The position numbers and the translations under genes were made by a program. Under the pieces are notes generated by a model that was not told the DNA's origin, did not search any database, and saw only the letters and a program-made list of their open reading frames with translations. DNA of 64,000 bases. It comes from Limonium bicolor (Eukaryota > Streptophyta > Magnoliopsida > Caryophyllales > Plumbaginaceae). Shown one piece after another: positions 17,845 through 64,000 of this stretch (position 1 is the stretch's first letter; each line of letters opens with the position of its first letter). Location of the stretch: assembly GCA_023374045.1 (NCBI GenBank), contig CM041779.1, positions 299,780,167 to 299,844,166 on the forward strand. Reading direction: 5' to 3'.

Positions 17845-18780
17845 TGTTATTAGACCTTTAGGACCAAACCTTAGGATAGAGGGTGAACCCTATGATTTAG
17901 GTGAGCCATGGTCCCACCTAATAAACTGGGTAATCCCTAGACCCAAACCACATCTTATTATATTAATTTGTATATAAAAAATGCCTTCTCAACAATTCAT
18001 CATAGCTCAATTTGTCAGATTATCTCCACACTTTCCAAGCCCCAAACCAAATCTCATTTGTCTCTCGAAATTTTTTTATTACACTCGGTTCTTTGAAACT
18101 CATTTCGAAAATCCTTTCCTTATTTATTTTTCTTCAAAAAAAAAAACAACACAGAAGCCAAACTTCAAAACCAATTCCAAAATCAAATTCAGAATCATTG
18201 CAAGTTCAAATGCGGCCCAAGCCCACAGCCCCGGCCCAAAAAACTTGTGAATCTGGCCCAAACCACCAATCCGGCCCAATCCATCAGCCCAAGCCCACAG
18301 CCTACAGCCCTGGCCCCAAAAAACCCGTGAATCTGGCCCAAACCACCAATCCGGCTCAATCCCTAGCCCAAAACCCATGGCCCACAATCCAAAGCCCAAA
18401 CTTAGCCCAAATATCCAGACTCGGCCCATTACCTAGACTTGGCCCAAATGCCTAAACCTGACCCATTACCTTCTCAGATCTGACCCATAACCCACTTAGA
18501 CCCGATCCAAAACCCGTTCAAACCCAAAGCCTAAATTCGAAGCCCAGACCCAAAACCCACTTAGGGCATAAGTCCGCGTGGAGCCCATCGAGAGCGGGTG
18601 TAGTGCACACTTGCACTCTCCCTTATGCTTTCTAGGAAAGACGGACGATTTAGTAGGTATTTGAAGGTTGCCACATTAACGGGTTTTCACCCTCCATGGA
18701 ATGGCATTTTCTAGGATCTAGGTTTCTTAGTCAGACCATACTTAGATACACCCCCTCATACCGAAAAATCACCCTCCACA
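17845..18780 (+). repeat. Element E 5' LTR
   Basis: The right end is well placed: the LTR ends CTCCACA, then three bases, then the PBS. The left end TGTTATTAGACC is a guess based on the TG start and on a TATA box (GTATATAAAA, 17970-17979) at a suitable distance. About 18215-18560 is packed with GGCCCA/GCCCA words in a purine-poor stretch. A second copy of the 'tcaccctcca..gaatggc' word, which precedes the PBS, occurs near 18687. No 3' LTR is in the window to confirm length. Confidence 0.5.
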
Positions 18781-18783
18781 GAA

Positions 18784-18800
18784 TGGCGACTCTGCTGGGT
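18784..18800 (+). other. Element E primer binding site (tRNA-Arg type)
   Basis: TGGCGACTCTGCTGGGT follows the LTR end after three bases. It resembles the complement of a plant tRNA-Arg 3' end, the primer type used by Tat/Ogre elements, and matches the primer site of element B (38681-38698) in position and most bases. Confidence 0.75.
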
Positions 18801-20398
18801 AAAACTTGAGTAAGTTTTTCTCAAACTCAAGGAAGACTGAACTCCATTCAAAATTGTCGAGACTTTCCCACTTCTTTCAAAACCTTCAAGAGATTCATTT
18901 CAAAGCCTCTAGGATTATTCTACTCCACAGTTAGAGTGTGTACCTGATGAGGATAGTTAGGACTTGATAGATCCTCAACAAACATTATAACAATTGGGTC
19001 AATGATTAGCTCATGATTAGAAAGAGACACTTAGGATTGAATGAAGCTAACTTCCCTTTAGGTTAATAAAAACCAAATTGGAATCACTAATCTCAAGATA
19101 AAATCCTTAGCAAATAGGTCGGTGCTAACTTCGTTTGTTTCATTTACTGCTTTCATATTTATGTTACAATTGCGGGGTGCATGACTGGGTAGCTTAGGAC
19201 ATGCATTCCTCTGTGTCACCCAATTTATCCACAAGTCACGGGATCCCGACCGGTCCACGGTTGATTCCCCATGAGCTAGGTCATTTATATAAATGGATAA
19301 ACCCACGGGGCAAGATGGTCGTCGACCTACGCCCTGCAGGCTCATGATCCAAAAATACCCTCCATTATCCGAGTCTAAGCCAGCATATAGTGAACCATGA
19401 GCCTTCAGTGTCCAGTTGCCTAATCCGGTGTCTAAGACGGGTTTTATGGGTAGTCACCCCCTTGTATGCCGCCTGTCTGACCACCCGTCTACCTTACCCT
19501 GAAGATTGCATGGGCTCAGTTCTCCATTGTTCCTCTGCACCACGGGTGTCTCTAAAGCCCAATGTCACGCTACACGTCCATAGAGGATCCCGTATTTACC
19601 GGATACCCATACATGGTACAACATAGTCAGTGAATAATTTGGACTTTAGACACATCTGACTGTGCAGATGACGAGAGACCCGTTCCCATGCAATACTTCC
19701 CCGAGTTTCCTGAAAAGTGAGCATGTTGTCGGATCATCACTGGTCGTGGTGTATGTTTCCTTATCACTTTGGGTATCCTGACCTTTCGAACTTACCCACT
19801 CAATGAGGGGCCTTCTTTATAACGTGCCCCACCAGGGGCATAGCAGAGAAAAACCCTGAGAGATGATAGTGAAGGGACGACGGTTCCCCCGGTGAGATGG
19901 AGTCATAATTGACCTAGAAAGTGATTATCCCAACATTAACACTTATAGATCCACAAAAAAACAGCCATGATTTATTTTATGTTATACACGTGTATGAAAC
20001 TTTTTCTAAACCAATCTTTCCCAAAGAATTTCACAAAAAAATATGTTCGGAATTCTCCCCTGTACGTTTCCCAAAAACTGCCTTACGTTCCATTATTTGA
20101 GACTCTTTGAAACCAACCGTCCCATCTTTCAAAAGGTTTTCTCCTTCAAAACCAAAATCAATTTTCAACTACATTTTCAAAAAAAAAAAGAGGAGGAAAG
20201 AGGGTTTTCAAAAACAGTTTTTTAAAAACAGTTTTTCAAAAACATTTTTCGAAAGCAGTTCTTTTAGTTTTTTTTAACTGGTTTCCATTTTCAAAAGCAA
20301 AGGCCGTGCTAGTAATTGCTTAGTCATCTCCTTAATCCGAACTCATCACATTCTTTCCCTTTATTTTCCTTTCGCTACTTTCTTTTGCAGATCTAATC
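18801..20398 (+). other. Element E 5' untranslated region
   Basis: This stretch of 1.6 kb lies between the PBS and ORF1. It has no sustained reading frame and ends in an A/T-rich stretch with repeated 'cagttttt' words (about 20210-20265). Long 5' UTRs are normal in Tat elements. Confidence 0.6.
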
Positions 20399-21800
20399 AT
20401 GTTCAACAGATTGGTACCCGTACCTAAAGAGGAAAAGAAACACCGAAGGGCCCAAGGAGAACCAGGAGAGGGATCCATAGCCAGAACACAAGTCCAGCCC
20501 TCCCCTTACCAACAAGAGATGAATGAGGAAAAAGATTTAGCCTGGGAGCTTCTGAATCGGTGCATAGAAATAAAGGACACATGCAAGCCACTCTTGATCG
20601 GACTAGTGTACCTATGCAAAGTTGACATGGTTTATGAAGCTTTATTTGAGTCCGTCAGCTACTGGGACCCAACAGACCATCTATATCGTTTCTTTCTGCA
20701 AGAGCTGATCATACTGCCCGCCGATATGGATACATTCCTCAAGATAAAGCCGCATCAGGAGATGCCAGTTATTCCTATTGACCGAAGCCAAACCCCGAAG
20801 TTCACAGCCAGATTCTTGGAGGTCAACCTGGAGGAAGTTGAAAACTTTGGGCATATGGGTTTGAGCTTACGTGATCTCCTGAACCAGTTCTACAGACCTT
20901 ATATCTCCTCTGAAACCCGAAGGCGTGTGTTGGATCTGTGTCTCATGGGCCTCTATCTCTTTAGACAGAGAGCCTGAAGAATGAATAAGCGAGTAATCTA
21001 CTTACTAAAAGCCTTTGAGAAAGGTTGCAGTATTGGAACAGTAGTGGTGGCTGAGATAGTTTGATCCCTAGACCGATGGAAAGAAGTAGGAACCGTAGAG
21101 ACCTTCTTCGTGGGTAGTCCTCTACTTCTTCAGATATGGTTGTTTGATCACCTATGGGTGCTACCTTGGTCCTCTAAGTATGTGAAGGTCAATATGGACA
21201 CATATATGACAGCACAAAAGCAGGAGTTGAAACCAGATGAGGGATGGAGAGTTTTCTTCCGGGATATTACTAGTGACAAACAGATCAAGTGGGTCATCAA
21301 AGATTAGGATGTCCAAGGAGGGGCCGTCCAATCAGCAGGTAACAATGGTCTGATCCTCATAGGCCTTGATAGATTCATCACCATTTATCCATAGAGGGGG
21401 ATGCGTCAATTTGGGCTTGAACAGACCATTCCAGGAGCAAGCATAGAGGGATTCAGAAACCACCGATACATAGATCCTACAGTCAGATACCTTACCCAAG
21501 CCTACGGCTCCGGGATGAAATGGGTTGTCCGCGACATTCATCCATGTCACATGAGCTTAGGTCCCGAATATTCAGCATGGTTGGAATGCAGAATTGATAG
21601 ATTGATACCCCACACCTATTCCTTAGAGCATTCGATGATCAAACATGATCCCCGCCTTCCGATCGTTGAAAGCCTGTAGCTTTTGGAATTTGACGTCTTG
21701 CAGAAGAAGAAAGAGAAGAAGAAACGACAGAGAAAGGAAAAATAGAGGCGGCAGAAAAAGAAAAATAAGGAGATGAAGCGTCAGCAAGCCATGAGTTGAC
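20399..21800 (+). pseudogene. Element E ORF1 remnant (DUF7745-like)
   Basis: The first 192 codons from 20399 are open and include LAWELLNRCIEIKDTCKPLLIGL, an aromatic-rich middle and LLNQFYRPYI. The frame then hits stops, but the same protein continues through YLLKAFEKGCSIGTVVVAEI and SPLLLQIWLFDHLWVLP (about 21000-21170), a later Trp-rich part and a Lys/Arg-rich tail ending near 21800. This order (variable start, 'LLQIWLFDHL' core, basic tail) is that of the DUF7745 protein encoded upstream of gag in Ogre-type elements. Its role is unknown. At least four stops make it inactive. Confidence 0.6.
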
Positions 21801-21869: not shown

Positions 21870-22059
21870 TGATAAGTGCAAAACATATAGACTTATTAAG
21901 GTTTAATCACCTTATAATTTGTAGCATTATAAGTAATGTTTCTCACTTATCTTGGGTTTTTCCTATAATTATGTTGTGATATTAACTGATGTATTAGATG
22001 TGTTAAAATGTAGGAAAAATGCCATATAAATATATATATATATCAAAAGGGATTAAAGC

Positions 22060-22350
22060 GTCTGCCCTGTGTCCACAGAATTAAAGGCGGACAACAAAGG
22101 AGTAGAGACGTTCGTGTCACGTCCGCCCCGTGTCCACAGAATTAGAGGCGGACAAGAGTGTGAGACGTCCGCAGAATTAGAGGCGGACAAGAGTGTGAGA
22201 CGTCCGCAGAATTAGAGGCGGACAAGAGTGTGAGACGTCCACAGAAGTAGAGGCGGACAAGAGACAGAGAAGAAGACCGTGAGACAACCGGGGAATAAAA
22301 CCCGGACAGAAACCCGGACATATACCTGCCCGCGGAAATAAACGCGGACA
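22060..22350 (+). repeat. GTCCGC / GGCGGAC hairpin array in D
   Basis: Repeated units pair 'cgtccgc' or 'cgtccac' with 'agaggcggac', separated by 'agaattag' and joined by 'aagagtgtgaga'; three near-identical 33-base units lie at about 22150-22260. The array is about 200-490 bases upstream of D's TATA box, so it is in U3. Confidence 0.8.
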
Positions 22351-23271
22351 TAAACACGGACGCGTGTAAATGTCCAAATCCAGATACAGAAATTAACGCG
22401 ACTGGTTTTCTTCGCCCACTGTCTTCCCCAAGTTGCTTCTTCCTTTGCGGCGCCTGTAAACATATCTATCTACTCTCATCAATATCAGGCGCCGCAGCAC
22501 ACCTTAAATTCCTCACACGGTGTTCCCTCTGTCTTCTTCCTCTTCCTTTCTTCTATAAAACCCACGCTCCATTTATCTTCTCCAATGTTCCCTTCCGGGG
22601 TTCCAATCATCTATCTGCGATCCATTACACCACAATTCACACGTTCATCTCATTTCTCTCCTCCCGTCTTCTCCATTTTGTTTTCTTTTCATTCCACCAT
22701 ATCCACCTTTAGTCTCATGTATTCAAATAGCAGATCAATTATTTAATATGTTAGGCTAGAATACGTATACTCTGGGAATGATTATTATGTATTTCTATTA
22801 ATTATGCAATATGTTTTACTGGTTTTATTTTAATACAATTCATTACGATTAAAGTTCATCTCTCACCTTTTTAATAAACCTCATGAATTTATTAAAATGC
22901 TTCACAAAATCTATTTTTAATCTGATCGGTGATAAAATAGATAGGTTAATTAAGCCGTAAAACTGTAGGAAACTTGTTTTCATTGGATAAGTTAGTACTC
23001 AGTTGCAAGAATATTATTCCTTTTACAATGCCGTTTACTAGTGCCTGCTTGAGTTTTCATTGGACCTTGCATTTTCTGGTAAACGAGTTCTTATGAGTCT
23101 ATGATTAGTCCTTAAGATAATAAGAGGAATTTTGCCAAACAATTATAATTAAACCAGTAGACATAGCATGAAAGAGCAGATATTATTAACCTGAACCAGA
23201 GTCCTATTTAATTTACCTATTAACTTAGTTTATTTTATCTTTCCTTTTTATTTGTAAAAACAAGTCAATTA

Positions 23272-23276
23272 ATCCC
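23272..23276 (+). repeat. Target duplication of C, left copy (ATCCC)
   Basis: ATCCC here matches 30746-30750. It is in D's LTR. Confidence 0.75.
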
Positions 23277-24937
23277 TGCAAACGTGTATATCTGAGTGGT
23301 TAGAACTGGTGTAATTAAAATAAAAGTAAAGAAATTAAAACTCAAATTAAACGTCGGGCTGCAAACAAATCCCGGTCGTGGTAGTATAGTAAGTGTAAGC
23401 GACCGAATATCGAACCGTGGGACTAAGGTGAATATTTTAGTACCTAAGCGTGTCACAAAAGGGGGAAGTTAATTGACTTGTTTTTGAAAAGTAAATAACA
23501 TATTAATTTAGTGAATTGAAGATAAATTAAATGGAACTCCGAGTTTTTGGTTAATATGATTGAGTTGTGGTTAATATCTCTACCGGTTTAATATAATAAT
23601 TTGGCAAGATTCCTATTATTATCTTAAGGTCCGATGAAAACTCATAAGAACTCGTTTACCTGAAAATGCAAGGTCCGATGAAAACTCAAGCAAAATGCGT
23701 ATAAACGGCAGAGGAGTGTGAGGAATTTTATTCTTGCAACTTGTACTAACTTATCCGATGAAAATAAGTTCCTACAGTTTTACAGCTTAATTAAACTATC
23801 TGTTCGTCACCGATCAGATTAAAAACAGATTTAGTAAGGCTTTTTAATAAATCGATGAAATTTATTAAAAAGGGAGCGTGATAAACTTTAATCGTAACAA
23901 ACTGAATTTATTTTAACCGGTAGAAATATAGATTACACAACTAAACAAACCATAATTAAACCTTCGCCCGGAGTAAATCCTCCTTAGCCTGACATATTAA
24001 CTGGTAATAAGTCAGACAGAGGTTGGACGTAATATTAATGCGGAGGTGTGGATGGTGAATGGAGAAATGGAGAGAACGGAGAATGAAACGTGTACGTAGG
24101 ATATTATATGTGGAATGAGTGAATTGGAGTGTTTGAGTTCTGGGGATCGAATGATGTGTTGTGGTGTACGGGAGAGAATGAATGGAAGTGAATGGTAACT
24201 GTGGTGAGCGATGGTCTGATTTTCTGGTTTTCTCCGTACGCCTGTTTAAGGTTGCAGGTGCTGGGTTTATATAGAGGAAGGGAAGAGGCACATCTGGAAG
24301 AATTGATTGCAGATTGATTGCTCATTGATTGCTCATTAATTGCAGGGGACAGAGCTGGAGACGCGTGAGAGAATTAAGGTAGGCGCTGCTCGGAGTAGAT
24401 GGATATGGCAGAAGCAAGTTGCAGACAGTCGGCAAAGAAGAAAACTGTTCGCGTCTGAATTTAGTCGCGTCCGCCCTGTGTCCTCGTTGGCATCCGCCTC
24501 TGGCTATGCGGACGTAGCCTTGTCCGCGTATGCAAGTGGAACCGCCTCCCTGTCCGCCTCTGGCTACGCGGACGCAAGTGGAACCGCCTCCCTGTCCGCC
24601 TCCGGCTACGCGGACGCAAGTGGCCCTCCTTGTCCACCCAAGTCCATGCGGTCACTTGTGTGGTCATAAGTTTTTGACTTATTTTCTTCTACGAACTTTG
24701 ACCAGCTCCAGATTCTTCGTTTGGACTCCGTTTTTCGAGCCGTCTGCGCCTATGCGTTCGTATCTTCGTCTACTTTACTCCCAGCTTGGTTTTCCTCATG
24801 TTAAAGACAAAAATTTGTGAGATAACAATAAAACATAAACTAGAGGAAAACTAACCGAAGTGGAGAAATGAGCAAGAAAAGTGCTAATATTATATATGAA
24901 ATACACCTATAAAACATGCTCATTTGGACACTTATCA
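23277..24937 (-). repeat. Element C 3' LTR
   Basis: On the minus strand it starts TGATAAGTGTCC and ends CACGTTTGCA; length is 1661 bases. A TATA box reads CTATATAAAC (plus 24265-24274). A GTCCGC hairpin array lies upstream of it (plus 24470-24640). It differs from the 5' LTR by scattered substitutions and by array length. Confidence 0.85.
24470..24640 (-). repeat. Hairpin array in the 3' LTR of C
   Basis: Units pair GTCCGCCTC or GTCCGCC with CGCGGAC across a 'tggcta' centre, joined by 'gcaagtggaaccgcctcc'. About four units are present, against more in the matching array of the other LTR (30240-30450). Confidence 0.8.
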
Positions 24938-26052
24938 CACCCCCACACTTATCTTTTTGCTTGTCCTCAAGCAAAACCACGGACCCAAGTAAGTAGGAAA
25001 TGCTCAATACTAACGAATATTATTATGAAGGGTAGGATAAAGAGGTGAACAGTTCATGATCTTTTTAACTTATTAAGGAGTGTGAAAAATCAACTGCTGG
25101 TGGCATAGGTGTGCTCAGGGTAAAAATAAAATATAGAGTTTCGGGGTATGATCTAAGGTACTTCAATGTTTCTTTTGTTTAGATGACTCTGAGAACTTTT
25201 ACCATGGCCAACTTCTCTCAAGAATGGGCATTTGAGGAGAAAACAAAAGGAAAAATTAGATTCATGCATTTGTTTCACTTTTGCATAAGGGATGAGAAAA
25301 TGTAGGCATCACGCCTTTGTATTCAAGAACACTCAACTCTCTCTGTTGGTTACCAATGGTGTCTCGCAAGTCCCTTATTTTTTTTATTCTTCTTTCTCTT
25401 TTTTTTTTTAAACAGAGAAGCACCCCTTAGCAATCCCTAAGAGAGAAGACAGAAAGAAACCCTGAGCAATAAAATCCAACCATTTGTAGAATATTGGGTC
25501 ACCCCGCATAAGAAAAATGCTCCTCAAAAGTAATCAAATGAAAATTTTTAAAATTTGTACCATTTATCCCACAATTCATAATAGTATTTGTTTTTAAAGA
25601 GAACAACCTACATTAGCAGGGTACATAATTTTAATTTTTTGAACAAATGCAAGAAAAGCAGAGAGATTTAAACAATTTAAGCACAAAATGCCCTGAAAAG
25701 GCTCTTCCTCCACACTTAAGCTCAAGCAATATCCTCATTGCGTAGATGAAAATAAATTAACAGGGCATGCAATTAATAAAGGAAAGAGTGTACTCCCCCG
25801 ATTTCGTAGAGTGTGTAGAGCTCCCCCACACTTGAGTGCAGCTATGGAATGTCATGAAATGAACCTGTAAAGAATATTCTACACAGCCAGAAGAACTCAA
25901 GTAAAACCTGCATTTAATTATAACATATAAAGGGAAATATAGTACAAAAAGGAAAACAACATTAAATTAAAGGAAAGACAAAAGATAGATAGTGGGTTGC
26001 CTCCCACCAAGCTGCCCGGGTTTAACGTCTCTAGCTAGACGCATGTTTTTTA
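24938..26052 (-). other. Element C 3' UTR and polypurine tract
   Basis: Read on the minus strand, this follows gag. It begins with the block 'gacgttaaa', 'gggcagctt' and 'gggaggcaaccc' (plus about 25995-26040), continues through sequence closely matching element A's 3' UTR (for example plus 25090-25380 against 53340-53650 in reverse), and ends with AGTGTGGGGGTG, the polypurine tract next to the LTR. There is no open frame of note. Confidence 0.75.
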
Positions 26053-27456
26053 TTATCCCGGATCATAAATGAATGTTGACAATGGTAGTACCGGGAACAG
26101 GAAATTGGCAATATGTAGGACCGAACCACCAGGATCAAAACAAAGAATTACGGCAACAATTACAGTAGGAAAAGACAAACTCCACAAAACCTGGTTTTGA
26201 AGGAGGTGTTTGCTGCCATTAATATTGTATTGAAAACAGGGTGATGGTTGTAGTGCTTCCTCAAATTGGAGAATGTAAACATTCTCCTTTTGTTGTTTAG
26301 CCGTATGGATGCAAGATGGCAGTGGTGGTGCTTGCTCAGAGTCGAGGACGTAAATTTCCTCCCCTGGAATGAAAATGAAGATGGAAGTGGGCTTCAACGG
26401 GTGGGTTGGGTGGGCATTATTTTTCTTTGGAGAAGGGCCCAGATTTTTCAATGGATGTCCCTTGGTGCGAGGATTAAAGTTGGATGGCTCCTCCTCCTCA
26501 AATTTGAGGATGTAAATATCCTCATCTTTTTGAAGAGGCTCATAGGAAGAGCCCTGGTTGATTTCAACTTCAGAGGGAGATGGCTCCTTGAAGGTGATTT
26601 TGGTGTTTTGTTTGGATGTTCTGGCGGGAGCGAGCATTTCCTCCTCTTCATTTTTGAGGATGTATCTATCCTCATTTTCTGGATATAGCACAGAGAAGGA
26701 GGGAAAATAACGGTAATTAACTTCAAAGGGAGGAGACTCCATGAAGTTGAGGTAGAAGTTGTCCTCTGATGGCTTGTCTTCAAGCTCAAGCAGAAGGTTT
26801 GATGCCGTTTGCTCATTTTTGAACGGGGGTGGTGATATAGAGTAACTCAAATCCTTAGGGTAGTCGTCCACTATATGAACCAATTTGCTCTCCGGTTGCT
26901 GTGATGTAAGGTCTAGTGGACCTTCCATCATTTCGTTTATCGCAACTAATTTGGCATAGAGCTTCATTTGGTTCATGTCGAGGTATTCTTCCTCAGCCTG
27001 CTGCTCCACTACAGGGACCATTTCACTCTCGGGTTGTTGCTCCCTTTGAGCTAATGTGATGGGCTGGTCCACTACGTAAATTGCTTTTGCATACTCTTTT
27101 GGATTTGGATTGGTTTGTGAGGGGAGTTGGCCAGAAGGTCTTTGCTGAGTTAGAAGTTGTTGTATTTGGGACTGCAAGGCTTTTTGGTCATTACGAAGGG
27201 ATGTGACCTCCTCTTGCGTGTCTTGGGACTTACCCATCATTGCTTTAAACATCTCTTGCATTTGAGACATATCAGACTCAGGATTCGAAGGAGGTTGAGC
27301 TGGTCGACTTGAAGAAGCTTCATTGCCATAAGGCTGTTGTTGGTATTGGCTTTGGCCTCCTTGGAAATTGGACTGAGGTTTGTAATTTTGAGATGGTTGA
27401 AGTGTATGTGGGTTTTGAATATTGTCGTTGTTTGAGTAGCGAAGGTTGGATTGCAT
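26053..27456 (-). pseudogene. Element C gag, C-terminal part with repeated hydrophobic-acidic motifs
   Basis: This is a 467-codon reading that continues the gag of 28636-27458 after a frameshift near 27458. Residues 1-60 are Asn/Gln-rich, 60-110 are Gln/Met-rich and probably coiled, and the rest is acidic. Six short motifs with a hydrophobic x hydrophobic hydrophobic core next to acidic residues recur: IYVVD (126), VHIVDD (193), RYILKNEEEE (264), IYILKFEEEE (314), IYVLDSE (368) and VYILQFEE (393). They resemble SUMO-interacting motifs. The tail (430-467) is hydrophobic. No protease signature (DLGA-type) follows, unlike element A. It may instead be translated by frameshifting from the upstream part. 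Confidence 0.65.
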
Positions 27457-27457
27457 G

Positions 27458-28636
27458 TTATCCTGAACTGTTGGTGAGATAGTTTGCCTCCTCTGTTGCT
27501 TTTAATTCTTGTAGTTGGGGGCATTGTTCATAGTCATGAGGCCCGCCACATTGCGTACAAGAAATAACAGGAGATGATTGGGACAGAGGTGCATAGCCTG
27601 GAGGGATTGTAGATGATCGGGAAATCATCGACTTAGCTTGCTGGGGGTAGGAGTTCATAGCCATCTGTTCAACCACTTTCTGCAGAGTACTTACTTTTGT
27701 TGCCTGCTGAGCATTGTTTTCCATGAGTTGCTCATGGCTTTTCATCAGCTGGTCAAACTTGTTATCACTTTCCCCAACATGGTATAAACCTGGAGTGCCA
27801 CTCTTTGATCCACCGGAGGCCCAGTCTCTGATTTCTTCACAGAGAGACTCCATGCTATTCAGAAATTGTGCTCCTGGCTTTTTCAGAATGTTAGCCCCTA
27901 ACGAAGACAGTACCATTGTTCTGCACGGACCGATCAAGCCTTTGTAGAACAATTGTGATACTTGTTCTTTCGTCAGACCATGGTGAGGACAAGTAAGTAG
28001 TAGTCCTTTGAAACTATCCCAAGTTTCACAAATATTCTCCGACCCTGGTTGCTTGAAATTATAGATTTCAGCAATCATCTCCAACGTTCGGCTCGGGGGT
28101 AGGAATTTGTCATAGAACTTGGTGGCCATGTCATCCCAAGTCCCAATGGTACTTGGTGTCAAGCTATGATACCACTTGCTCGCACTTCCCGTCAGGCTGT
28201 GAGGGAATAATGACAATCTTGCGTACTGGAGTACTGCGTCGGTTGCAGTAAGACTGTTGGCATGTTGTAAGAATTTTGTAACATGTAACAGGGCTTCGTC
28301 TGGACTGGAACCATCAAACATGCCCAACTCCTTCACACATCTGATTTGATGATATGGCTTCAGCTTCTGCCACTCATCGTATTCGAATGGGCTAAGATGA
28401 GTAAGGATGATAGCAGGCTGTTGTCCTAGGTTAGACGGCCTGTTGATATTTCGAACTGTCGCTGGTGTAGATGCCATGTCAGCTTCCGGGTCAGATTCTA
28501 TCACTGTGGTGGTAATGTTTTGTTGAGTTCGGTTCTGCCTTAGGGAGCGCAGAAGGGTTCTCTCGATCTCTGGAATGTAACCAACCGTGTGATTATTAAT
28601 ATTTTCTGGGAGGCTGTTTGACCTGGTAAAAGGCAT
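27458..28636 (-). pseudogene. Element C gag, N-terminal part (Athila-type)
   Basis: The reading has 392 codons from an ATG at 28636, the first after the 5' UTR. It matches Athila gag: an LTHLSPFEYDEWQKL-type segment, LFPHSLTGSASKWYHSL and FYDKFLPPSRTLEMIAEI in the retrotransposon gag domain (about residues 90-270), and a knuckle C-x2-C-x3-H-x4-C at residues 360-372 (CTQCGGPHDYEQC). Gag packages the element's RNA in virus-like particles. It ends at a stop just before the second gag ORF, which starts in another frame, so a one-base shift separates them. The counterpart in element A is 47068-49077. Confidence 0.8.
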
Positions 28637-29046
28637 TCACCACTCAAAACAGAGAAAAGAAACTCGTTATGTGTTAGAATAAATAAAAATGTTAGGAATT
28701 AGTTGACAGAAATTTTAAGTTAGTAGTTAGAGACAATGGAAAGAAATGACAGAAAATTGAAATGACAATGGAAAGAAATGACAGAAAATTAAAGTTAGTA
28801 GTTAGTATACGGGAAATTTGAAGGACAATGGAAATTAAATGACAAAAATAAATGACAATAATATTAAGATGTTAGAAGTTAGACGTCCAAAGTCAGAAGT
28901 CCGAAGTCCAAAGTCAAATGTCCGAGGTCAGATGTCCGAAATTGGATTAACAATTCAATAATATTATCAGATTATTATATATAACAGGTGAATTAACCGG
29001 GGCTTAGGGACTAGAATAAATCAAGTCCCCGGCAACGGCGCCATTT
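28637..29046 (-). other. Element C 5' UTR and primer binding site (tRNA-Asp type)
   Basis: The PBS TGGCGCCGTTGCCGGGGA occupies plus 29026-29043 and starts three bases inside the LTR end. The rest is a short leader with repeated words 'caatggaaagaaatgaca' (plus 28735-28790) and 'agtccgaagtc' or 'tgtccgaggtc' (plus 28880-28945). The same repeats, in sense, occupy the leader of element A (46520-46830). Confidence 0.75.
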
Positions 29047-30745
29047 TGCAAACGTGTATATCTGAGTGGTTAGAACTGGTGTAATTAAAATAAAAGTAAA
29101 GAAATTAAAACTCAAATTAAACGTCGGGCTGCAAACAAATCCCGGTCGTGGTAGTATAGTAAGTGTAAGCGACCTGATATCGAACCGTGGGACTAAGGTG
29201 AATATATTAGTACCTAAGCGTGTCACAAAAGGGGGGAGTTACTTGACTTGTTTTTGAAAAGTAAATAACAGATTAATTTAGTGAATTGAAGATAAGTTAA
29301 ATGGAACTCCGGGTTTAGGTTAATATGATCTGATTAGTTATGCTATCTCTACCGGTTTAATATAATAATTTGGCAAGATTCCTGTTATTATCTTAAGGTC
29401 CGATGAAAACTCATAAGAACTCGTTTACCTGAAAATGCAAGGTCCGATGAAAACTCAAGCAAAATGCGTATAAACGGCAGAGGAGTGTGAGGAATTTTAT
29501 TCTTGCAACTTGTACTAACTTATCCGATGAAAATAAGTTCCTACAGTTTTACGGCTTAATTAACCTATCTGTTCGTCACCGATCAGATTAAAAACAGATT
29601 TAGTAAGGCTTTTTAATAAATCGATGAAATTTATTAAAAAGGGAGCGTGATAAACTTTAATCGTAACAAACTGAATTTATTTTAACCGATAGAAATATAG
29701 ATTACACAACTAAACAAACCATAATTAAACCTTCGCCCGGAGTAAATCCTCCTTAGCCTGACAAATTAACTGGTTATAAGTCAGACAGAGGTTGGACTTA
29801 ATATTAATGCGGAGGTGTGGATAGTGAATGGAGAAATGGAAAGAACGAAGAATGAAACGTGTACGTAGGATATTATATGTGGAATGAGTGAATTGGAGTG
29901 TTTGAGTTCTGGGGATCGAATGATGTGTTGTGGTGTACGGGAGAGAATGAATGGAAGTGAATGGTAACTGTGGTGAGCGATGGTCTGATTTTCTGGTTTT
30001 CTCCGTACGCCTGTTTAAGGTTGCAGGTGCTGGGTTTATATAGAGGAAGGGAAGAGGCACATCTGGAAGAATTGATTGAGATTGATTGCTATTGATTGCT
30101 CATTGATTGCTCATTAATTGCAGGGGACAGAGATGGAGACGCGTGAGAGAATTAAGGTAGGCGCTGCTCGGAGTAGATGGATATGGCAGAAGCAAGTTGT
30201 AGACAGTCGGCAAAGAAGAAAACTGTTCGCGTCTGAATTTAGTCGCGTCCGCCCTGTGTCCTCGTTGGCGTCCGCCTCTGGCTATGCGGACGTAGCCTTG
30301 TCCGCGTTGGTGTCCGCCTCTGGCTACGCGGATGCAAGTGGAACCGCCTCCCTGTCCGCCTCCGGCTACACGGACGCAAGTGGAACCTCCTCCCTGTCCA
30401 CCTCCGGCTACGCGGACGCAAGTGGGAACCGCCTCCCTGTCCGCCCAAGTCCATGCGGTCACTTGTGTGGTCATAAGTTTTTGACTTATTTTCTTCTATG
30501 AACTTTGACCAGCTCCAGATTCTTCGTTTGGACTCCGTTTTTCGAGCCGTCTGCGCCTATGCGTTCGTCTCTTCGTCTACTTTACTCCCAGCTTGGTTTT
30601 CCTCACGTTAAAAACAATTAATTTGTGAGATAACAATAAAACATAAACTAGAGGAAAACTAACCGAAGTGGAGAAATGAGCAAGAAAAGTGCTAATATTA
30701 TATATGAAATACACCTATAAAACATGCTCATTTGGACACTTATCA
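29047..30745 (-). repeat. Element C 5' LTR
   Basis: This is 1699 bases in the same orientation as the 3' LTR. TATA is at plus 30034-30043 and the hairpin array is at plus 30240-30450. The array is longer here than in the 3' LTR and accounts for part of the length difference. Confidence 0.85.
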
Positions 30746-52564: not shown

Positions 52565-53788
52565 GTACGCTTCAAAGCGTCTAGCCAAAGACGTTAAAGA
52601 AGGGCAGCTTTCCGGGAGGCAACCCGGACGAACTTATCTTTTATATGCTTTTATGCTCTTTTAATTATCAGGTTCCCTTTAAATTTTGTTTTTGCTAACT
52701 CTTAACCCCGTTTGTAGTATGGTTGCTTCTAGTGTCTTATGCAGGTGCAATTTCATGTCTACACCGCAACCAAGCTACGCTACTTGAGGCTGAAGCTCAA
52801 GTGTGGGGAACTCCTATAACGCAGCAAAAATATCTCAGGGGAGTACCAGTTCTTTAATTATGCTTTTAATTCAATAAAATCTGCAGAGGAGAGTTTATGT
52901 GCTTAAATGATTATACGTGAGCTTTGTGTTCTCTCTATTTTATCTACTTACCGAAAAGGTCTTCTGAAACTTTCCCTTGTTTTTCTGGTGAACAATGTGG
53001 ACATTGTTCAAATTAAGTGTGGGGGAGTGTGCCTTTTCGGTGACATTTTGTGCTAAAATGCTTAATCTCTCTGCTTATCTTGCGTTTGTCCAAATTCAAT
53101 ATCGTGACCCTTTATGTGTGGGTTGTTCTCTTTAAGAATAAATATGTTATGAATTGTGGGATAAATGGTATAAATGGTACAAATTCAAAAATTTTAAAAT
53201 TTTGATTACTTTTGAGGAGCATTTTTATGCGGTGTGACCAAATGATCTGAAATGGTTGGATTTTTATTACTCAGGGGTTCTTCTGTCTTCTCTCTTAGGG
53301 ATTGCTAAGGGGTGCTTCTCTGTCAAAAAAAAGAAAAAAATAAAAATAAGGGACTTGCGAGACACCATTGGTAACCAACAAAGAGAGTTGAGTGTTCTTA
53401 AAAATGAAGGCTTAATGCCTACATATTATCTTCTCATCTCTTATGCAAAAGTGAAACAAATGCATAATTCTATTTTTCCTTTTGTTTTCTCCTCAATGCC
53501 CATTCTTGAGAGAAGTTGGCCATGGTAAAAGTTCTCAAAGTCACCCAAAACAAAAGAAACATTGAAGTACTCCGGATCATACCCCGAAACTCTAATTTTT
53601 ATTTTTGCCCTGAGTACACCTATGCCACCAGTAGGTGATGGATCACACTCCTCTAAAAAGTTTAAGATCATGTACTATTGACTTCTTTATCCTACCCTTC
53701 ATAATAGTATTTGTTAATATTGAGCATTCCCTACTTGTTTGGGTACATGGTTTTGCTTGAGGACAAGCAAAAGGTATATGTGGGGGTG
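52565..53788 (+). other. Element A 3' UTR and polypurine tract
   Basis: It contains the block 'gacgttaaagaagggcagctt' and 'gggaggcaaccc' (52590-52630), an internal purine tract 'aagtgtgggggagtg' near 53015, a stretch strongly conserved with element C (about 53340-53650), and the final tract TGTGGGGGTG (53779-53788). I see no envelope-like ORF; short readings are not domain-like. Confidence 0.75.
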
Positions 53789-55516
53789 TGATAAGTGTCC
53801 AAATGAGCATGTTTTATAGGTGTATTTCATATATTATATCAACACTTTTCTTGCTCATTTCTCCACTTCGGATAGTTTTTCCTCTAGTTTATGTTTTATT
53901 ATTATCTCACAAATTTATTGTTTTAACATGAGAAAAACTGAGCTAGAAGCAAAGTAGACAAAGAGACGAACGCATAGACGCAAACGGCTCAGAAAACGGA
54001 CTTATAACGAAGAATCTGGAGCCGGTTGAAGATTGCAGAAGAAATTACAATATATATATATATATGTCGGCCAAAAACAACGACGTCAGAGGCGAGGACA
54101 TTGTGATGTCCGCCCCATTCAGTGAGGTACACACGCGGACGTCTCACACACCAAGGCAACCGCCCTAATATAGGCGGACAACAATACAAACTAGGCAACC
54201 GCCCTAATATAGGCGGACAAGGCTAAAAAACTACCGCATGGCAACCGCCTATTTGGAGGCGGTCAAGACACAAACAACCGCCTATTTGGAGGCGGACACA
54301 CTAGGCGGACTCAAGCTACAACCGCTCCAGTTCGTGCGGACTCAAGGCGGACAAGAGACGCCGCCAGTCTTCTTCTTCGCGACGTTCTGCAAATTGATTG
54401 CGCTATCCATCTACTCCCGCACCGCCTACCTTAAATCGCTCCACTCGTCGGCTGTGTCCCCTGTATTAAATGAAGCATCAGTCTGCAATCAGTGCTCAAT
54501 CAAATGCTCTTCATCGCCTCATCCAATCCTCTATATAAACCCAACACCATAACTGCAAAACAGGCACCACGTACGACCAGAGGCTGAAGAAATCACAAAC
54601 AGCTCCACACTCCATTCTCTTCCATTTAATTCCTCCCGTAACACCACAATTCTCCATCTTTTATTTATTTTCACCATTTCACCACATTCACGTACGTACT
54701 CAAACAGAAGCAGTATTTTTACAAAGAGAGAAAAGAGGCAGCGAGTGCAGACCCGTTCTTCACAAGCAGTTCCTGAATAATGACTATTTCAATCTCTACT
54801 CTGTTTTTATTTCTGTCAATGTCTGAGTAATCTTATATTTGTGCTTAGGATGGGTGTTTAACCCCAAAATAACTCAGCGTATTTATAATACCGAGTTTGC
54901 TTATAAATATTTGTTTTGTCTCTCTCTATTTTTAAATGTTTAAGAACTGATCATTTTTATGCATTTACGGTTTCTCTAATTTCAATGATTTTGTAAACTA
55001 GAGAATAGACCACAAAGAGAGACAAACGTCAGATATTATCTCCTTGATTAGCAGATAAAATCCTTCGCTGTTATAAAAAGAATTCTCGCTTAAGGCTAAT
55101 TAATGATTTTAGACTTTTTCTGATTGTAAAAAGTCTACTGAATTAATTAAGAGTTGTCCTTATCTATGATTTAGAAAGGCCACAAGATAAAATTCTTAAC
55201 AGACAAATAAGAGCAAACTAGGATTATATTTAATATCTGAGTTATAATAGGGCGATTTCACCTTCCTTAGCACATTTTCCATCCACTTAATTCACAACTG
55301 TTTTTACTGTTTTTTATTATTTCTGTACTAATCCAACAACAAATCCAGCTTGCCTCCGGCTAAACCCCTTTTTACAGTTTTTCTTAACTACCTAAACTAG
55401 GATAATTGAACAATCTCTCTATGGATACGACACTTGTTTTACTACTCCGTATAGGTACACTTGCCTATCAGTTTGCTATAAATCTGTATTTATTATAGTG
55501 TAGTTTTATCCGAACA
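53789..55516 (+). repeat. Element A 3' LTR
   Basis: This LTR is 1728 bases with a TATA box CTATATAAAC at 54531-54540. The hairpin array is at 54067-54350. It differs from the 5' LTR by scattered substitutions and a few short indels. Confidence 0.9.
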
Positions 55517-55521: not shown

Positions 55522-57126
55522 TTACCAATCCAAGCAAAGAGAAATTACACAAGTCTAGGAATGCCGATGGGCAAATCCTATAAGAAGTTGAAGAAGAGCG
55601 GGTTCCTACAGAGACACCCAAATTCGAAACCTGGAGTCACTCAGATGGGACCTGACCTCAACAGCCTATGTGAATATCACATGATCAAGGGACATAGTAC
55701 AGATAATTTCCGGGCCTTGCGAAATGCCATCCAGTACTTGATCGATGCTGGAGAGGAGGAATTCCCGAAAACTAATCCGAACACTTAGAACAACTCATTC
55801 CCCATACATGTGAATATATTGAGTCTGATGGGAGATGGAGAAGAAGAGTCAGACATTAGCAGAATCATAAGGATCAATGTCATCGAGAATTCTTCTGAGT
55901 CAGGCAACCAGAGCACACCTCCTTCGATCGTACTATCCCCAGAGCTAGACGCCTTCCGAGTTCCTCATCCTGAAATTCAGCACGATATTCAACCGCAGAT
56001 GCATGAATATCTAGCTATGATGCATGAATGCGAGACACAGTGGAGCGTCTGGTAGGACAAGGAAGGGTGTCTATACTCACTCTACTGATAGTAGGACGAC
56101 ATATGGAGAAGAACCTAGAATTACTCGTGGGACTGAATTTTGAAGCACAAGAGCTCTATAACACTATGAAAGCATTGGAGGTGGTAGAAGCATGGTGCCG
56201 GCAGAAGATTGCCGAAAGGCGAGGAAGGAGAATCTCTGAGTGCAATGTCATCATGATCACCGACGAAGATGAAAATCTATCGGCTATAACCCCTTTTAAA
56301 GTACCATTTTTGATAGCAGATGAGGATAAACCCGATGATGACTTAGAAAAAAATCAATCACTTAACCAGTTCAGGAAGGCATTTCAAACCCACTGAACTC
56401 GCAGAGGAGCCAGAAACATTGCAACAAAAAGTCCATGACCTTACTCTGAATGACTCAGAGAGCAAGTTGGTGGGAGAAGAAGAACTGTTGAGAAAACTGA
56501 AGACAACCAGCATACCCATTATAATCTGGTCCCTGTTGACGATTTCAGAAGAGCACAAAGATGCAGTAGCTCGACACTTGGGAATGGACAAGAAGCGGCC
56601 GACGTCGGTTGAAAACATCATAGCTCACCTATCTCGAACTCCTGACCTCTCCATAACATTCACCGATGACGAGATCCCTCGTCAATCTGGAAAAGCCCTC
56701 TACATAACTATGAAGGCTGGAGGCTTCCAGGTCCCAAAGACTCTAACTGATGATGGGGCTGAAGTGAATGTCTACCCGCTCGGTGTAGTGCGTCACATGG
56801 GACTCAACGACTTCAAGCTGGTAGACATGGCGTTGAGTGCCTATGACAATAGCCATGGAAAGGTTTTGGGTACCATCTCACTGCCGATCTTGATTGAGGA
56901 TGTCTCCCTGACCATCGAAGCAATGGTCATAGACATATCCTCCACCTTCAACCTTCTGTTGGGGCGGGAGTTCCAGATTAAAGGAGTCCCCTCAGTCGTC
57001 CATCAGAAGCTAAAATTCAAACACGGGGGGGGGGGGGGGGGGGGGGATGAATCGTGGAGGTTTTGGGAGAGGCTAGAGCTGAGTCCCCACTATTTGAGAT
57101 TAAGACACCGGGGGGTCGAGAGCTGA
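55522..57126 (+). pseudogene. Element E gag C-terminus and protease remnant
   Basis: 55561-55788 gives FLQRHPNSKPGVTQMGPDLNSL and CEYHMIKGHSTDNFRALRNAI, the Tat gag knuckle with an altered last cysteine. A stop at 55786 follows. 55810-56400 continues in two frames with acidic linkers. The protease is in 56419-57126: LTDDGAEVNVYPL (catalytic Asp-x-Gly region altered from the usual DSG/DTG) and SSTFNLLLGREF as the flap-side block. The last part runs into a 22-base G tract and loses the frame. Stops and frameshifts show it is inactive. Confidence 0.7.
57025..57046 (+). repeat. Poly-G run, 22 nt
   Basis: Twenty-two consecutive G interrupt E's protease region just after LKFKHG. The run is within a coding remnant and shifts the frame relative to what follows. 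Confidence 0.9.
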
Positions 57127-57484: not shown

Positions 57485-59600
57485 ATGGAGTGGGGGAGCT
57501 GGTGGACCACTTTATTCTCCCTCAACTCATGCCCTAAAGACCAGGACGACAAGGAATGCGACCAAGGAAAGCCTGAGGAGGTAGCAGAGAACAGTGTAAC
57601 GATCAAATCAGTCATCAAGGCCCCCGCACTCTCGGTAGATAGCCATGGAGCATGCCTTGCCATTTGCTACAGGAAGGAGGAGCCATATTCAGTCAGTCTA
57701 GTCAATAGTGATAGCAGTAATAGTAGTGATAGCAGTAGTTCTAGTGGTACTGATGATGAGAATGATGTCTGTCTCAAATTCAATGAAGAAGAAAGAGAGG
57801 GGGAGCCACCATTTATTTTTGGCTGTAAAAATGGTGGCAATTTTCTAACAATCACTGAGTTACCCAGCTCTTTGAATATTAATGAAAGTTCAGTTTGTTC
57901 AGAAAATTCATCTCTTTTGTCACTTGATTCAATGCAAAACTATGAGACTGAAGAAGAAGAAGAATATGACGAGGAGAATATGCCTCCCACAGAACAATAT
58001 TCCACCCACACTCAGATTGTGGAGGACACTGTAGAAATAAATATCAGAACACCTGATAACCCCAAAACTTTACAAGTCGGTTTGGGTCTAAGTGAAACAG
58101 AAAAACGGGACCTGACTTCTCTGCTAACTGAATATGTCGATGTTTTTGCTTGGAGTTACGCAGACATGCCTGGGATCGACCCTGACATTGTCCAACACAG
58201 AATACCATTGTATCCCAATGCCAAACCTAAGAAACAACGTTTAAGAAGAATGAAACCTGAGCATCAACTGAAAGTGAAAGAAGAAGTTGAAAAATTGTTA
58301 CGTGTCGGCTTTATCCGGGTCATCAATTACCCCGATTGGCTAGCTAATATCGTAGTCATCCCAAAGAAAAATGGAAAGGTGTGAGTGTGTATTGACTTTT
58401 GGGACTCAAACGAAGCCAGCCCCAAAGACAGCTTTCCCTTACCCCATATTGATATCCTTGTTGATAATACTGCCCAACATGCACTACTGTCATTCATGGA
58501 TGGATTTTCAGGTTACAATCAAATCCGAATGGCTGTAGAAGACCAGGAAAAGACGTCTTTTATTACACAGTGAGGAACCTTTTGTTATGTAAACATGCCC
58601 TTTGGTTTAAAAAATGCTGGAGCCACGTATCAAAGGGCTGCCACTACACTATTGCATGATATGATTCACAAGGAAGTGGAGGTATACGTAGACGACATGA
58701 TCGTCAAAGCTGCCCAACGAGAGGACCACTTGACAAACTTGAGAAAGTTCTTTGATTGGATGAGAAAATATCAAATGAAACTCAACCCGGAAAAATGCAC
58801 ATTTGGTGTAACCGGGGGAAAGCTTCTGGGTTTCATGATCACAACCCGTGGAATCGAGGTAGACCCAGATAAGATAAAAGCCATTCAAGAAATGTCTCCT
58901 CCAAAGATCAAAAAAGAAATCAGGGGTTTCTTAGGCAGAGTTCGGTACATCAGAAGATTCATCATGTAGCTAACCGAGACCTGTGAGCCTATTTTCCGTC
59001 TGTTAAAGAAAGACGCGTCTAAAGTCTGGAATGAATAGTGTCAAGAAGCATTTGAAATGATTAAAACCTATTTGCAGAACCCGCCAGTCTTGGTACCGTC
59101 CTAGGAGGGTAAGCCGATGATCCTTTACCTCGCTGCTCGAGAAACGTCAATGGGCGCCATGCTGGCCCCGGAACAAGGATCCCCACCGTGCGAAAAGTCG
59201 ATCTACCATATCAGTAAAAAATGGGTTGATGCGGAAACGCGATACTTTGACATCCACAAATTTTGCGCTGCTTTGGTTTGGGCCACGAAGAAGCTAAGAG
59301 ACTACTTGTTAGGGCAAGAGGTTCATCTTATTGCACGCATGAACCCTATAAAGTACCTTTTGGAAGAGCCAATTTTTTATGGTCGCTTATCCAGATGGTC
59401 CCTATTGTTGTCTGAATTCAACATCACTTTCAAAATTCATAAGTCAATCAAAGGGAGTGCCATAGCCGAGCATCTAGCAGAATGCCCCGCAGCGTCCGAG
59501 TTCTTTGGCAATGATGACTTCCCAGACGAGAAAATCATGACATTACGGAAAACTGCTGGAGGTTATACTTTGATGGTGCCGTCAACCATAAGGGTAAAGG
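57485..59600 (+). pseudogene. Element E reverse transcriptase and RNase H remnant
   Basis: The N-terminal 190 codons are a Ser/Asp/Glu-rich linker. The RT then reads LTEYVDVFAWSYADMPGID, LANIVVIPKKNGKV (stop at 58382), SFPLPHIDILVD, FMDGFSGYNQI, MPFGLKNAGATYQRA (58595) and YVDDMIVK (58682, catalytic), then IRGFLGRVRYIRRFI. RNase H follows with ILYLAARETSMGAMLA and HKFCAALVWATKKL (59117-59330). The final LARMNPIKYLLEEPI-type block ends near 59600. Stops at 58382, 58571, 58967, 59036 and 59102 break it. It is the Tat type of RT by its blocks and by the second RNase H that follows. Confidence 0.8.
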
Positions 59601-59965
59601 GTCGGGATCTTGTTGATCCACCCTGAGGGAGATCTGCTTCTAACTGCAGTAAAAATCAATTACCCGGTCACTAATAACATGGCAGAATACGAAGCCTGTA
59701 TCCTGGGACTTGAAATGGCGTTAGAATTGCAAGTGGAGGAGTTAGAGGTCTTTGGCGACTGTAATCTCGTTATTGCGCAAGTCAACCATACTTGGGAGAT
59801 CATAGAAGAACAATTAATCCCCTACCATGACTACCTTTCACACCTAATCACCTGCTTTCGAAACGTAACTTTCAAGCATCTGAACCAGAGCTAGAACATC
59901 TTTGTAGACTCTTTAGCCTCCCTAGCTTCAGTAGTCCAAGTACCAGGCGGCTCATTATACTTTCC
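59601..59965 (+). pseudogene. Element E second (archaeal-type) RNase H remnant
   Basis: The reading gives LIHPEGDLLLTAVKINYPVTN, NMAEYEACILGLEMALEL and VFGDCNLVIAQVNHTWEI, the pattern of the extra RNase H found in the Tat lineage. A frameshift separates it from the first RNase H near 59600-59625 and a stop is at about 59892. It would help to remove RNA from the hybrid; the exact role of the second domain in these elements is not settled. Confidence 0.7.
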
Positions 59966-61281: not shown

Positions 61282-63046
61282 ACCGCCATAAAAAATCCAA
61301 AAAATGCATCCATGAAAAAAATGCATCCACACAAAAATCCAAAAATGCATCCACACAAAAGTTATCATTTATCTGCATTAGGTTTAGCTTAATTGCATTT
61401 GCATTTGCATATCCCCAGTCTCGAGGTGTACCCCGATCTTTAATTCTAGGAAAGTCACACAAGTCATCAAAGGTTGTAGAACTCTTGTATCATTTTCCCC
61501 GAAGAGGTCTTGAAAGGATCTCCAACCCCCCCGTGAGAGTTGAGTGCATGAGAGAAACACAGAGCGTGCAAAACCCAGAGCGTTTGACGCATTTAAATTT
61601 CAAAGCGCCATGTGAGGATCTCCCTTCACGAAACCAAATATTGATGAGAAAAGCGCGTTACCATTCATGTCAAAATTTGGGAATAGTAAAGGAAACAATT
61701 ATCTGTCAATAGGAATGACGAGGCACCTAGGATCGAAGAAAACCCCCACAAGGCCAAAAGCCTTATTGACCCTAAAAATGATCCCTTAGTGAACCCCGCT
61801 GAGCCTTTCATTGAAAATCTTTTCGAAAACAGCTCCATGATATGCCACCCCACATCACGCAACCATTCACCCCTGCAAAAGAGGATAAAAGAGCTGGAGC
61901 CATAGTTCCTTCCCCACCATTTAAAGCATGGAAGAAAGTTAAAAAGAGATACCCAAATAGGATGAAAACGAGAGAAGCGGAGCACAAAACGCTCAAAATA
62001 GTAAAGAGAGGAAATGAAAGACTCACATCACTCGATACCTCCACACTTGATAAATAGATGAGACCAGAAATGTCAAACACAAAGAAATGCAAATAGACTA
62101 CTCAAAGAAAGTAGTAAATCAAAAATGACAACATATAATAATCCGCACAAATGCGAAAGGAGTCCAAAAATCACTCCATCCATGGCAAAGGTGAAGCATA
62201 TCCTCCGTTGCACAAAAGCTCCACAATCCTCAAACAAATCCTCCAGTCCCATGTCACATACCCTGCAGCCCCGTTATAACCCATTGAAAGACCTCCGACT
62301 TAGAGATGGTATTTCCTTGATTTGAAAAGTACCAAATTTAAAACATGAATGGCCACGACGCGTCCAATCTTGTCAATACAATCGTGCACAAATGAGTGTC
62401 AAAGAAATCAGGAAGGTGGAGAAAAAACGAGTGTTCATCACCCCGATTAAAGAAAGCCTAACTGACCCTATGAAAGGAAACAGAAAGGTATAGGAGAACC
62501 CGAAGGACCTCTTTTGAGAAGATTTTTCAAGAAGGAAGTGACCTAGAAATGACTAATCTGATTTAATTAGAATTCTTGGTTGAGCTCACCTTGACACGAC
62601 ATCCCCTTTGCATTCAATCATATACAATTCCAGAATAAAATGCATGTAGAATAGATTTTCTTCCATCGGTTCAGACATAATATCCTACACCATGGAAAGA
62701 GAAAGATGAGTATGCTCTTTTAGAAAGGGAAGCCACAGCATAGAGCCTGTCTCCTTCACCAACCGGCACGACAGCCACTCTCAGAGACTACGCAGCCATC
62801 AAAACAAAGGATTAAAAGTCTTCGGGCACCATTCAAAGAAATGCCCCGCAAGACATCCCTCCTCACCACCAAACCCCTCACTTGCCAAAATTCATGAACT
62901 ACGTAAGGTATGATCTCAACAGAGAGTTGAGTACGTAGGCAACCCTTGCAAAGTGCGACCCCATCCCAAACAAAAACCCTCCTCCACTCGAACCACAAGG
63001 CCATTGCCATCACTCTATGAAGAAATCCGTCTCAATCGGGAGGATC
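61282..63046 (+). other. Element E 3' UTR, first part
   Basis: No ORF with a domain follows pol. 61295-61365 repeats 'aaaatgcatccacacaaaaatcc' two to three times. The rest is A/C-rich sequence with short, non-domain readings. The long 3' UTR is a Tat trait. Confidence 0.55.
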
Positions 63047-63210
63047 ATCTCAGGGCTACACCGGAGCCATCTCAGGGCCATACCAGAGCCATCTCAGGGC
63101 CATACCGGAGCCATCTCAGGGCCATACCGACACCATCCCAGAGCTACACCGGAGCCATCCGATCACGTGGGAGCCACCCGATCGTACCGAAGCCATCCGG
63201 GCACATCAAC
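63047..63210 (+). repeat. GCCATCTCAGGGCCATACCG minisatellite
   Basis: A unit of about 22 bases built on 'gagccatctcagggccatac' recurs four to six times, then decays into 'gagccatccgatcacgtggg' type units. It lies in E's 3' UTR. Confidence 0.75.
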
Positions 63211-63575
63211 GCCCTCAGGTTCCAAAGCCAATCATTCAAAAAAAACCATCCATTCAAAGACCAACCACAAAATCACAAAACCAAAAACCAAAAACTCGAA
63301 AGCCATACCATAGCCATCTCGAACCCTGGAGCCAAGAGTCGTACCAAATCCCCCGAAACCATAGTGCACATCGGGCCAAGATCACCAAAAACAAAACCAA
63401 AAGAAAGTCCCACACTAACAAAGTCAATGGCGACATCGACAGAAAACATTCGACCAACACACCCCTCATGAAGGAAATCAGAAAGCATCCAATTCTGGAT
63501 CAACCCACAACTAAAATCAATCTCAAATCAGTCACCCAAATCAGCGAGTTTCGTACAACTCCAATTAAGTATTAT
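63211..63575 (+). other. Element E 3' UTR between the two tandem arrays
   Basis: A/C-rich stretch with 'accaaaaaccaaaaac' and 'gccatacc' words, no gene. It leads into the satellite at 63576. Confidence 0.5.
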
Positions 63576-64000
63576 AGGCTCGTCATAAGTCCTATAGCTA
63601 GACGTCAAGAGGTTTAGTTGAGGCTCGTCATAAGTCCTCGTGCATCCAAATCTATCTATTGTTAGTATTATAGGCTCGTCATAAGTCCTATAGCTAGACG
63701 TCAAGAGGTTTAGTTGAGGCTCGTCATAAGTCCTCGTACTTTCAATTTGCATTATAGGCTCGTCATAAGTCATATAGCTAGACGTTAAGAGGTTTAGTCG
63801 AGGCTCGTCATAAGTCCTTGTGCACCCAAATCTATCAATTGTTAGTATTATAGGCTCGTCATAAGTCCTATAGCTAGACGTCAAGAGATTTAGTTGAGGC
63901 TCGTCATAAGTCCTCGTACTTTCAATTTGCATTATAGGCTCGTCATAAGTCCTATAGCTAGATGTCAAGAGGTTTAGTTGAGGCTCATCATAAGTCCTCG
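63576..64000 (+). repeat. Higher-order satellite, alternating 96 and 84 bp units
   Basis: Units start with AGGCTCGTCATAAGTCCT at 63576, 63672, 63756, 63852 and 63936, so lengths alternate 96, 84, 96, 84 and give a 180-base dimer. Within each unit the AGGCTCGTCATAAGTCC word recurs after 'agctagacgtcaagaggtttagttg'. The 96-base type ends 'ccaaatctatc.attgttagtattat' and the 84-base type ends 'actttcaatttgcattat'. The array continues past the window. Tandem repeats in the 3' UTR are characteristic of Tat/Ogre elements. Confidence 0.9.

Follow-up and report, generated by a model that had tools for sequence, protein, structure and literature searches.

The closest described relatives of the elements treated here are the Athila and Tat/Ogre clades of Ty3/gypsy long terminal repeat (LTR) retrotransposons, and elements resembling both are found inserted into one another in a single window of the Limonium bicolor genome. 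The window is the whole stretch of 64,000 nt that was analysed (assembly GCA_023374045.1, contig CM041779.1, positions 299,780,167-299,844,166, forward strand), and positions 17845..64000 of it very probably hold a nested stack of Ty3/gypsy elements of the Ogre-Tat-Athila (OTA) kind in a plant-type genome. The elements are called A to F, with E as the host into which the others were inserted directly or indirectly. Such a stack is ordinary for plant-type genomes, and one of the inserted elements, C, seems to combine parts of two families.

For the Athila clade, which includes Calypso, Diaspora and Arabidopsis Athila, passages of PMC1142308 describe a tRNA-Asp primer site near the LTR in Calypso and Diaspora, and part of PMC2410132 reports recombination between distant Athila families as well as families made up only of elements without pol, some with intact open reading frames (ORFs). 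A and C resemble this clade in a tRNA-Asp-type primer site a few bases past the LTR and in LTRs of 1.7 kb, and A also in the order gag, reverse transcriptase (RT), RNase H and integrase, the likeness being drawn from these features. C may further be compared with the gag-only elements and inter-family recombination of PMC2410132, but differs in having a second ORF without a known relative.

In Ogre and Retand a second RNase H is located between RNase H and integrase, and a sense ORF upstream of gag is taken as the mark of Ogre rather than Retand, in part after PMC1142308 and PMC11963269. E is like the Tat/Ogre elements in its second RNase H after the first, in a sense ORF upstream of gag and in tandem repeats after pol, and it shares the form of its primer site with B. 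It differs in the length of its presumed LTR, 936 bp as against over 5,000 bp for the Ogre mentioned in PMC1142308.

Five insertions with exact target duplications

Comparison of the window with itself gave three direct LTR pairs, those of A, B and C, with the B pair in two pieces, and all three align from end to end, as had been expected of them. A, B and C each have a direct LTR pair, TG...CA termini, a target duplication, a primer site and a purine tract before the 3′ LTR. The five insertions placed by the first-pass annotation of this DNA (A, B, C, D and F) are borne out by target duplications of 5 bp that are exact in all five cases and stand at TG...CA ends (Table 1). Among random TG/CA end pairs of the window a flanking 5-mer was common to both sides in 254 of 200000 draws (0.0013), and at such a rate per insertion five exact duplications out of five are not due to chance. 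The duplications demonstrate integration at the five sites. Since the junctions are exact, they also support the order given at first pass, in which E came first, D, B and A entered it, C went into D, and F into B.

The elements are of repetitive kinds, and an assembler might have chained them at repeats to give a nesting that is not real. Five mis-joins would nevertheless not be expected each to yield an exact 5-bp duplication next to TG...CA ends, and every LTR resembles its own mate more closely than it does any other LTR of the window that was compared, making an artefact of this type highly improbable. True nesting recalls a survey of 1491 nested pairs, portions of which (PMC6911290) likewise describe 5-bp duplications, insertion of Ty3/gypsy into Ty3/gypsy, the case of an element entering the LTR of a relative included; LTRs are not commonly targeted according to the same portions, whereas here two of the five insertions lie in LTRs, five cases being too few for a test.

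In the proposed series of events E, Tat/Ogre-like and on the plus strand, would have integrated first and then decayed. D, B and A then each hit E, the staggered 5-bp cuts being repaired into the target duplications. Recombination between its two LTRs would have reduced D to one LTR, the gag-only element C would have entered this LTR in reverse orientation, and F, now likewise a single LTR, would have entered one of the LTRs of B. We infer the formation of the solo LTRs and its timing relative to C, the mobilisation of B and C by the enzymes of other elements, and the finer order.

The host element E

Judged by its LTR-like block with primer site, upstream ORF, gag, RT, RNase H and second RNase H, E is Tat/Ogre-like. 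The second, archaeal-type RNase H, which is the mark of the Tat clade, is recognised in E as an RVT_3 match (E=7.9e-18) in 59598-59891, after RT_RNaseH in 59117-59623 and before the integrase part, as located by tblastx to A; in the same comparison the stretch that separates the matching parts of RNase H and integrase is about 475 bp longer in E than in A. The sense ORF upstream of gag, as in Ogre, is apparent from the reading frames. Its predicted product of 192 aa matched DUF7745 only at E=0.18, below the cut-off, and a protein search of 71 candidates found none at E<=0.001 in a collection that may not include plants. The plant mobile domain PF10536, listed for 57% of Ogre elements in PMC6317226, is not obligatory in Ogre elements, and the three pieces searched for it gave no match at E values up to 5. 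A 90-bp tandem repeat (30941-31134) starts at the right target duplication of D, and a 180-bp tandem repeat (63571-64000) in the E region after pol reaches the end of the window; repeats of that sort are described in PMC11963269 for Retand, which also belongs to the Tat clade. The earlier statement that E has the most stops holds to the extent that its gag-pol is spread over about a dozen frames compared with about five for A, figures that come from a stop-to-stop list and not from a controlled count.

It had also been claimed that the gag frame of E is in register once A and one AGCAG are removed. This is consistent with what is found, but the support is weaker than stated, as a frameshift is needed in the left flank. 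A plus one duplication amounts to 10827 bp, a multiple of three. Right of A the gag of E reads in phase 1; left of A it reads in phase 2 up to 44359 and, beyond that point, probably in phase 1. When compared with the gag of B, the left side matches over 44003-44359 (B 37077-36723, E=2e-20), in phase 2 blocks 44003-44110 and 44114-44359, and the right side over 55630-55764 (B 36301-36167, E=9e-11) in phase 1. The two matches are 421 bp apart in B; in E the distance is 443 bp when A and one duplication are subtracted. Within 44375-44694 phase 1 was the best of nine phase/frame comparisons (score 39, 19 residues), a score reached by 4 of 300 shuffles (maximum 47) and not significant once corrected for nine comparisons. 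Openness of a frame across A was discarded as evidence, since it says little when the phase-0 frame is also open over the left junction (44454-44837). The likeliest account is a shift of the E gag from phase 2 to phase 1 left of A, after which the flanks near A agree, with stops between. B gag, in which no insertion was found, is collinear with E gag on both sides of A, and this collinearity is, as a matter of sequence comparison, better evidence than the frame argument.

Several points weigh against the stack as described. The 3′ LTR of E and its own duplication fall outside the window, and 30944-31270 is placed in E by position alone. The frameshift and stops in the gag left of A make the frame a weak test, and for 44502-44612 phase 0 is even suggested by one weak match in tblastx (E=0.38). 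For B, no pol domain was found in seven pieces searched, which cover only some of its short frames.

The segments left of D, between D and B and right of B might instead come from two or more degraded elements, given that the joints at D and B are supported by position and duplications only and that the 327-bp piece between them has no tblastx match to other segments. The duplications of D and B imply, however, that their flanks were contiguous at the time of insertion, and a single Ogre-type element would show this very order, from LTR and primer site through upstream ORF, gag, RT and the first and second RNase H to the repeats. Several elements are hence considered unlikely and E is treated as one.

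Elements A and B

By its OTA pol without a second RNase H, A is Athila-like; no RVT_3 match was obtained in the A pieces searched. Its gag, RT, RNase H and integrase were all found, with a stop inside RT and frame changes that break pol. The frame 53238-53525, the only one searched 3′ of the integrase, matched no Pfam family and hence gave no env match. The 18-base word at 46425 in A and at 29026 in C is labelled here as a putative tRNA-Asp complement.

B lies on the minus strand with a primer site, gag pieces and a purine tract, and tblastx at 1e-5 gave no match to the pol of A or E inside it. Having retained these three features while pol is apparently absent, B looks gag-only and non-autonomous, although a degraded pol could have escaped detection. 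An ACBP4_C match in one piece of B was below the cut-off and was set aside as chance.

The putative solo LTRs D and F

D consists of one LTR with a target duplication and no internal region and is, on these features, best read as a solo LTR. Over its 1595 bp it matches the 1699-bp LTR of C from the middle of the LTR through the last base. F is probably also best read as a solo LTR: its start matches that of D at 68.5% over 181 columns (E=7e-11), and the case for an LTR rests on these first 175 bp. F opens with a 10-bp word at 38961-38970 that occurs again, inverted, at 39034-39043, 73 bp later. The empty site of F reported at first pass is present in the other LTR of B as a single CTAGG at the same place, and thus the site is doubly fixed.

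D and F could alternatively be short elements of another kind that happen to have TG...CA ends. F is 2.4 kb long and contains several long open frames that overlap one another; the two that were searched gave no Pfam family, and its 3′ end matches none of the LTRs of the window. This explanation is improbable in view of the match of D to the C LTR up to its last base, the lack in F of an LTR-like internal repeat pair and the resemblance between the starts of F and D, and solo LTRs are the preferred reading for both.

Element C and its possibly mosaic LTR

No pol domain was found in the two ORFs of C, no E pol match in its interior (tblastx, 1e-5), and the tblastx matches between A and C at 1e-3 are all outside the pol of A. 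C, which retains gag as well as a primer site and a purine tract, looks gag-only and non-autonomous. The predicted product of its second frame terminates in a hydrophobic stretch; at E<=0.01 it had no match in Pfam, and a protein search of 3501 candidates, from a collection that may not include plants, gave no relative.

The LTR of C (1699 bp) matches that of A at 1-259 (87%) and 512-827 (72%), with 260-511 unmatched and nothing further on, and matches D at 1069-1512 (79%) and 1512-1699 (91%), with an additional 27-bp match at 689-715 around a TATA-like box (704-711). The LTR of A does not match D (5′ LTR at E 1e-3, 3′ LTR at 1e-4). From these ranges the partner changes between 827 and 1069, a point that lies after the presumed transcription start. 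Short matches between the A LTR and F (17-31 nt) fall within a single TA-rich stretch and were disregarded.

The last ~800 internal bases of A and C are 85% identical, with 60-bp windows of 75%-97% beyond the start of the match, and the 5′ leaders are 72% alike, whereas the gags are only 40% identical over 177 aligned residues (tblastx). Coding was rejected as the cause of the similarity of the tails, as in each tail all three frames contain 7 to 20 stops and the mismatches (43/30/40) follow no clear codon pattern. That non-coding DNA is more alike than gag suggests either that lineages exchanged sequence or that cis signals were under strong selection.

A tentative proposal, to which we give slightly less than an even chance, is that C is a mosaic that arose by reverse transcription between two Athila-like families, with the 3′ tail, LTR start and promoter A-like and the R-U5 part D-like. 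Strong-stop DNA of one family would have jumped to the R region of another in an inter-family strand transfer. Selection on packaging, priming or promoter signals is a possible alternative and weighs against the mosaic. Moreover, the discontinuous match between the A and C LTRs and the 72% similarity of the leaders indicate that the history was not one simple exchange. This relation among the LTRs of A, C and D is new here and was absent from the first-pass annotation.

LTR divergence and finer order

The two LTRs of A (1724/1728 bp) differ by 26 substitutions in 1715 aligned sites (Kimura two-parameter distance, K, 0.0153 +/- 0.003, or 1.5%), those of B (1744/1765 bp) by 33 in 1744 (K 0.0192 +/- 0.0034, 1.9%), the split LTR being taken as two pieces with 4 in 259 and 29 in 1485, and those of C (1661/1699 bp) by 48 in 1660 (K 0.0295 +/- 0.0043, 3.0%). 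The 42-bp repeat in the C LTRs, with 2.4 copies (24525-24623) in one and 3.2 copies (30311-30445) in the other, and the 21-bp repeat array contained in the longer LTR of B fit the larger gaps in these two pairs. At rates of 6.5e-9, a slower value that we assume, to 1.3e-8 the ages would be ~1.2-0.6 million years for A, ~1.5-0.7 for B and ~2.3-1.1 for C. The faster rate is quoted in a passage of PMC7251063.

Fisher tests, uncorrected for three comparisons, gave p=0.007 for A versus C, 0.07 for B versus C and 0.43 for A versus B. On LTR divergence C probably precedes A, and so therefore does D, in which C is inserted. The order of D, B and A, earlier said to be beyond fixing, is in this way partly resolved, with D before A probable. 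According to PMC7251063 the LTRs of about one nested element in four have diverged further than those of its host, and gene conversion can distort LTR ages, so that the placing of C and D before A is to be held loosely.

Rest of the window

Region 1-17844 was rejected as a source of an E relative: it gave no tblastx match at 1e-5 to the nine other segments, and its RT is LINE-like. This reverse transcriptase (RVT_1), with a zf-RVT domain after it, is encoded outside the stack at 7167-8794, and an ORF at 709-1248 with a DUF599 match (E=1.1e-28) is probably part of a host gene. Scans of viral contigs with the RT pieces of A and E gave 2 and 8 pattern matches, none of them confirmed, in collections that may not include plants; ARAGORN (bacterial code) and Rfam (gathering thresholds) gave no match, and several other weak Pfam matches were set aside as chance.

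Table 1. Positions of the elements, their parts and their target duplications in the window.
Feature	Position	Strand	Remarks
E, presumed 5′ LTR	17845..18780	+	TG...CA, 936 bp; ends inferred, no partner LTR in window
E, primer-site-like TGGCGACTCTGCTGGG	from 18784	+	same form as primer site of B
E, ORF upstream of gag	20399..20977	+	192 aa; Ogre-type extra ORF
E, segment between D and B	30944..31270	+	327 bp; 90-bp tandem repeat; assigned by position only
E, gag left of A	43179..44689	+	start codon position inferred
E, gag right of A	55522..55788	+	phase 1; zinc-knuckle-like piece matching B gag
E, RT piece, RNase H, second RNase H (RVT_3)	58574..59891	+	
E, tandem repeats after pol	63046..64000	+	22/44 bp and 84/180 bp; E presumably runs past window
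D, putative solo LTR, left part	21870..23276	+	1407 bp; last 5 bases are left duplication of C
D, putative solo LTR, right part	30751..30938	+	188 bp; 91% identical to end of C LTR
D, duplication ATTGG	21865-21869 / 30939-30943		
C, gag-only Athila-like (apparent)	23277..30745	-	LTRs 23277-24937 and 29047-30745
C, tRNA-Asp-type primer site	29026-29043	-	18-base word
C, gag ORF	27458..28636	-	392 aa; PF03732 E=2.5e-22
C, second open frame	26053..27501	-	467 aa counted from first ATG, 482 codons between stops; 44-nt overlap with gag frame
C, duplication ATCCC	23272/30746		
B, gag-only Tat/Ogre-like (apparent)	31276..42894	-	LTRs 31276-33019 and 38702-38960 + 41389-42894
B, broken gag	36164..37449	-	PF03732 piece and zinc-knuckle-like piece
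B, duplication GTGCC	31271/42895		
F, TG...CA block in B LTR	38961..41383	+	2423 bp; probable solo LTR
F, empty site (CTAGG) in other B LTR	31530..31534	+	
F, duplication CTAGG	38956/41384		
A, Athila-like	44695..55516	+	LTRs 44695-46418 and 53789-55516; gag, RT, RNase H, integrase
A, tRNA-Asp-type primer site	46425-46442	+	18-base word
A, duplication AGCAG	44690/55517		

Implications for the element families

Earlier publications (PMC6911290, PMC7251063 and PMC2410132) already describe nesting and solo LTRs and, for Athila, recombination and gag-only elements. What the window adds is an ordered, checked record of six integration events within 46 kb, that of E itself being presumed, in which gag-only elements of Tat-like and Athila-like kinds both appear to be present. 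The apparently mosaic C is the one part of the stack worth following up, and the single window illustrates how the parts of an LTR may differ in ancestry. If the mosaic is real, D, the LTR that C later entered, would belong to one of the parental lineages, and gag-only elements would swap promoters while living on the enzymes of others.

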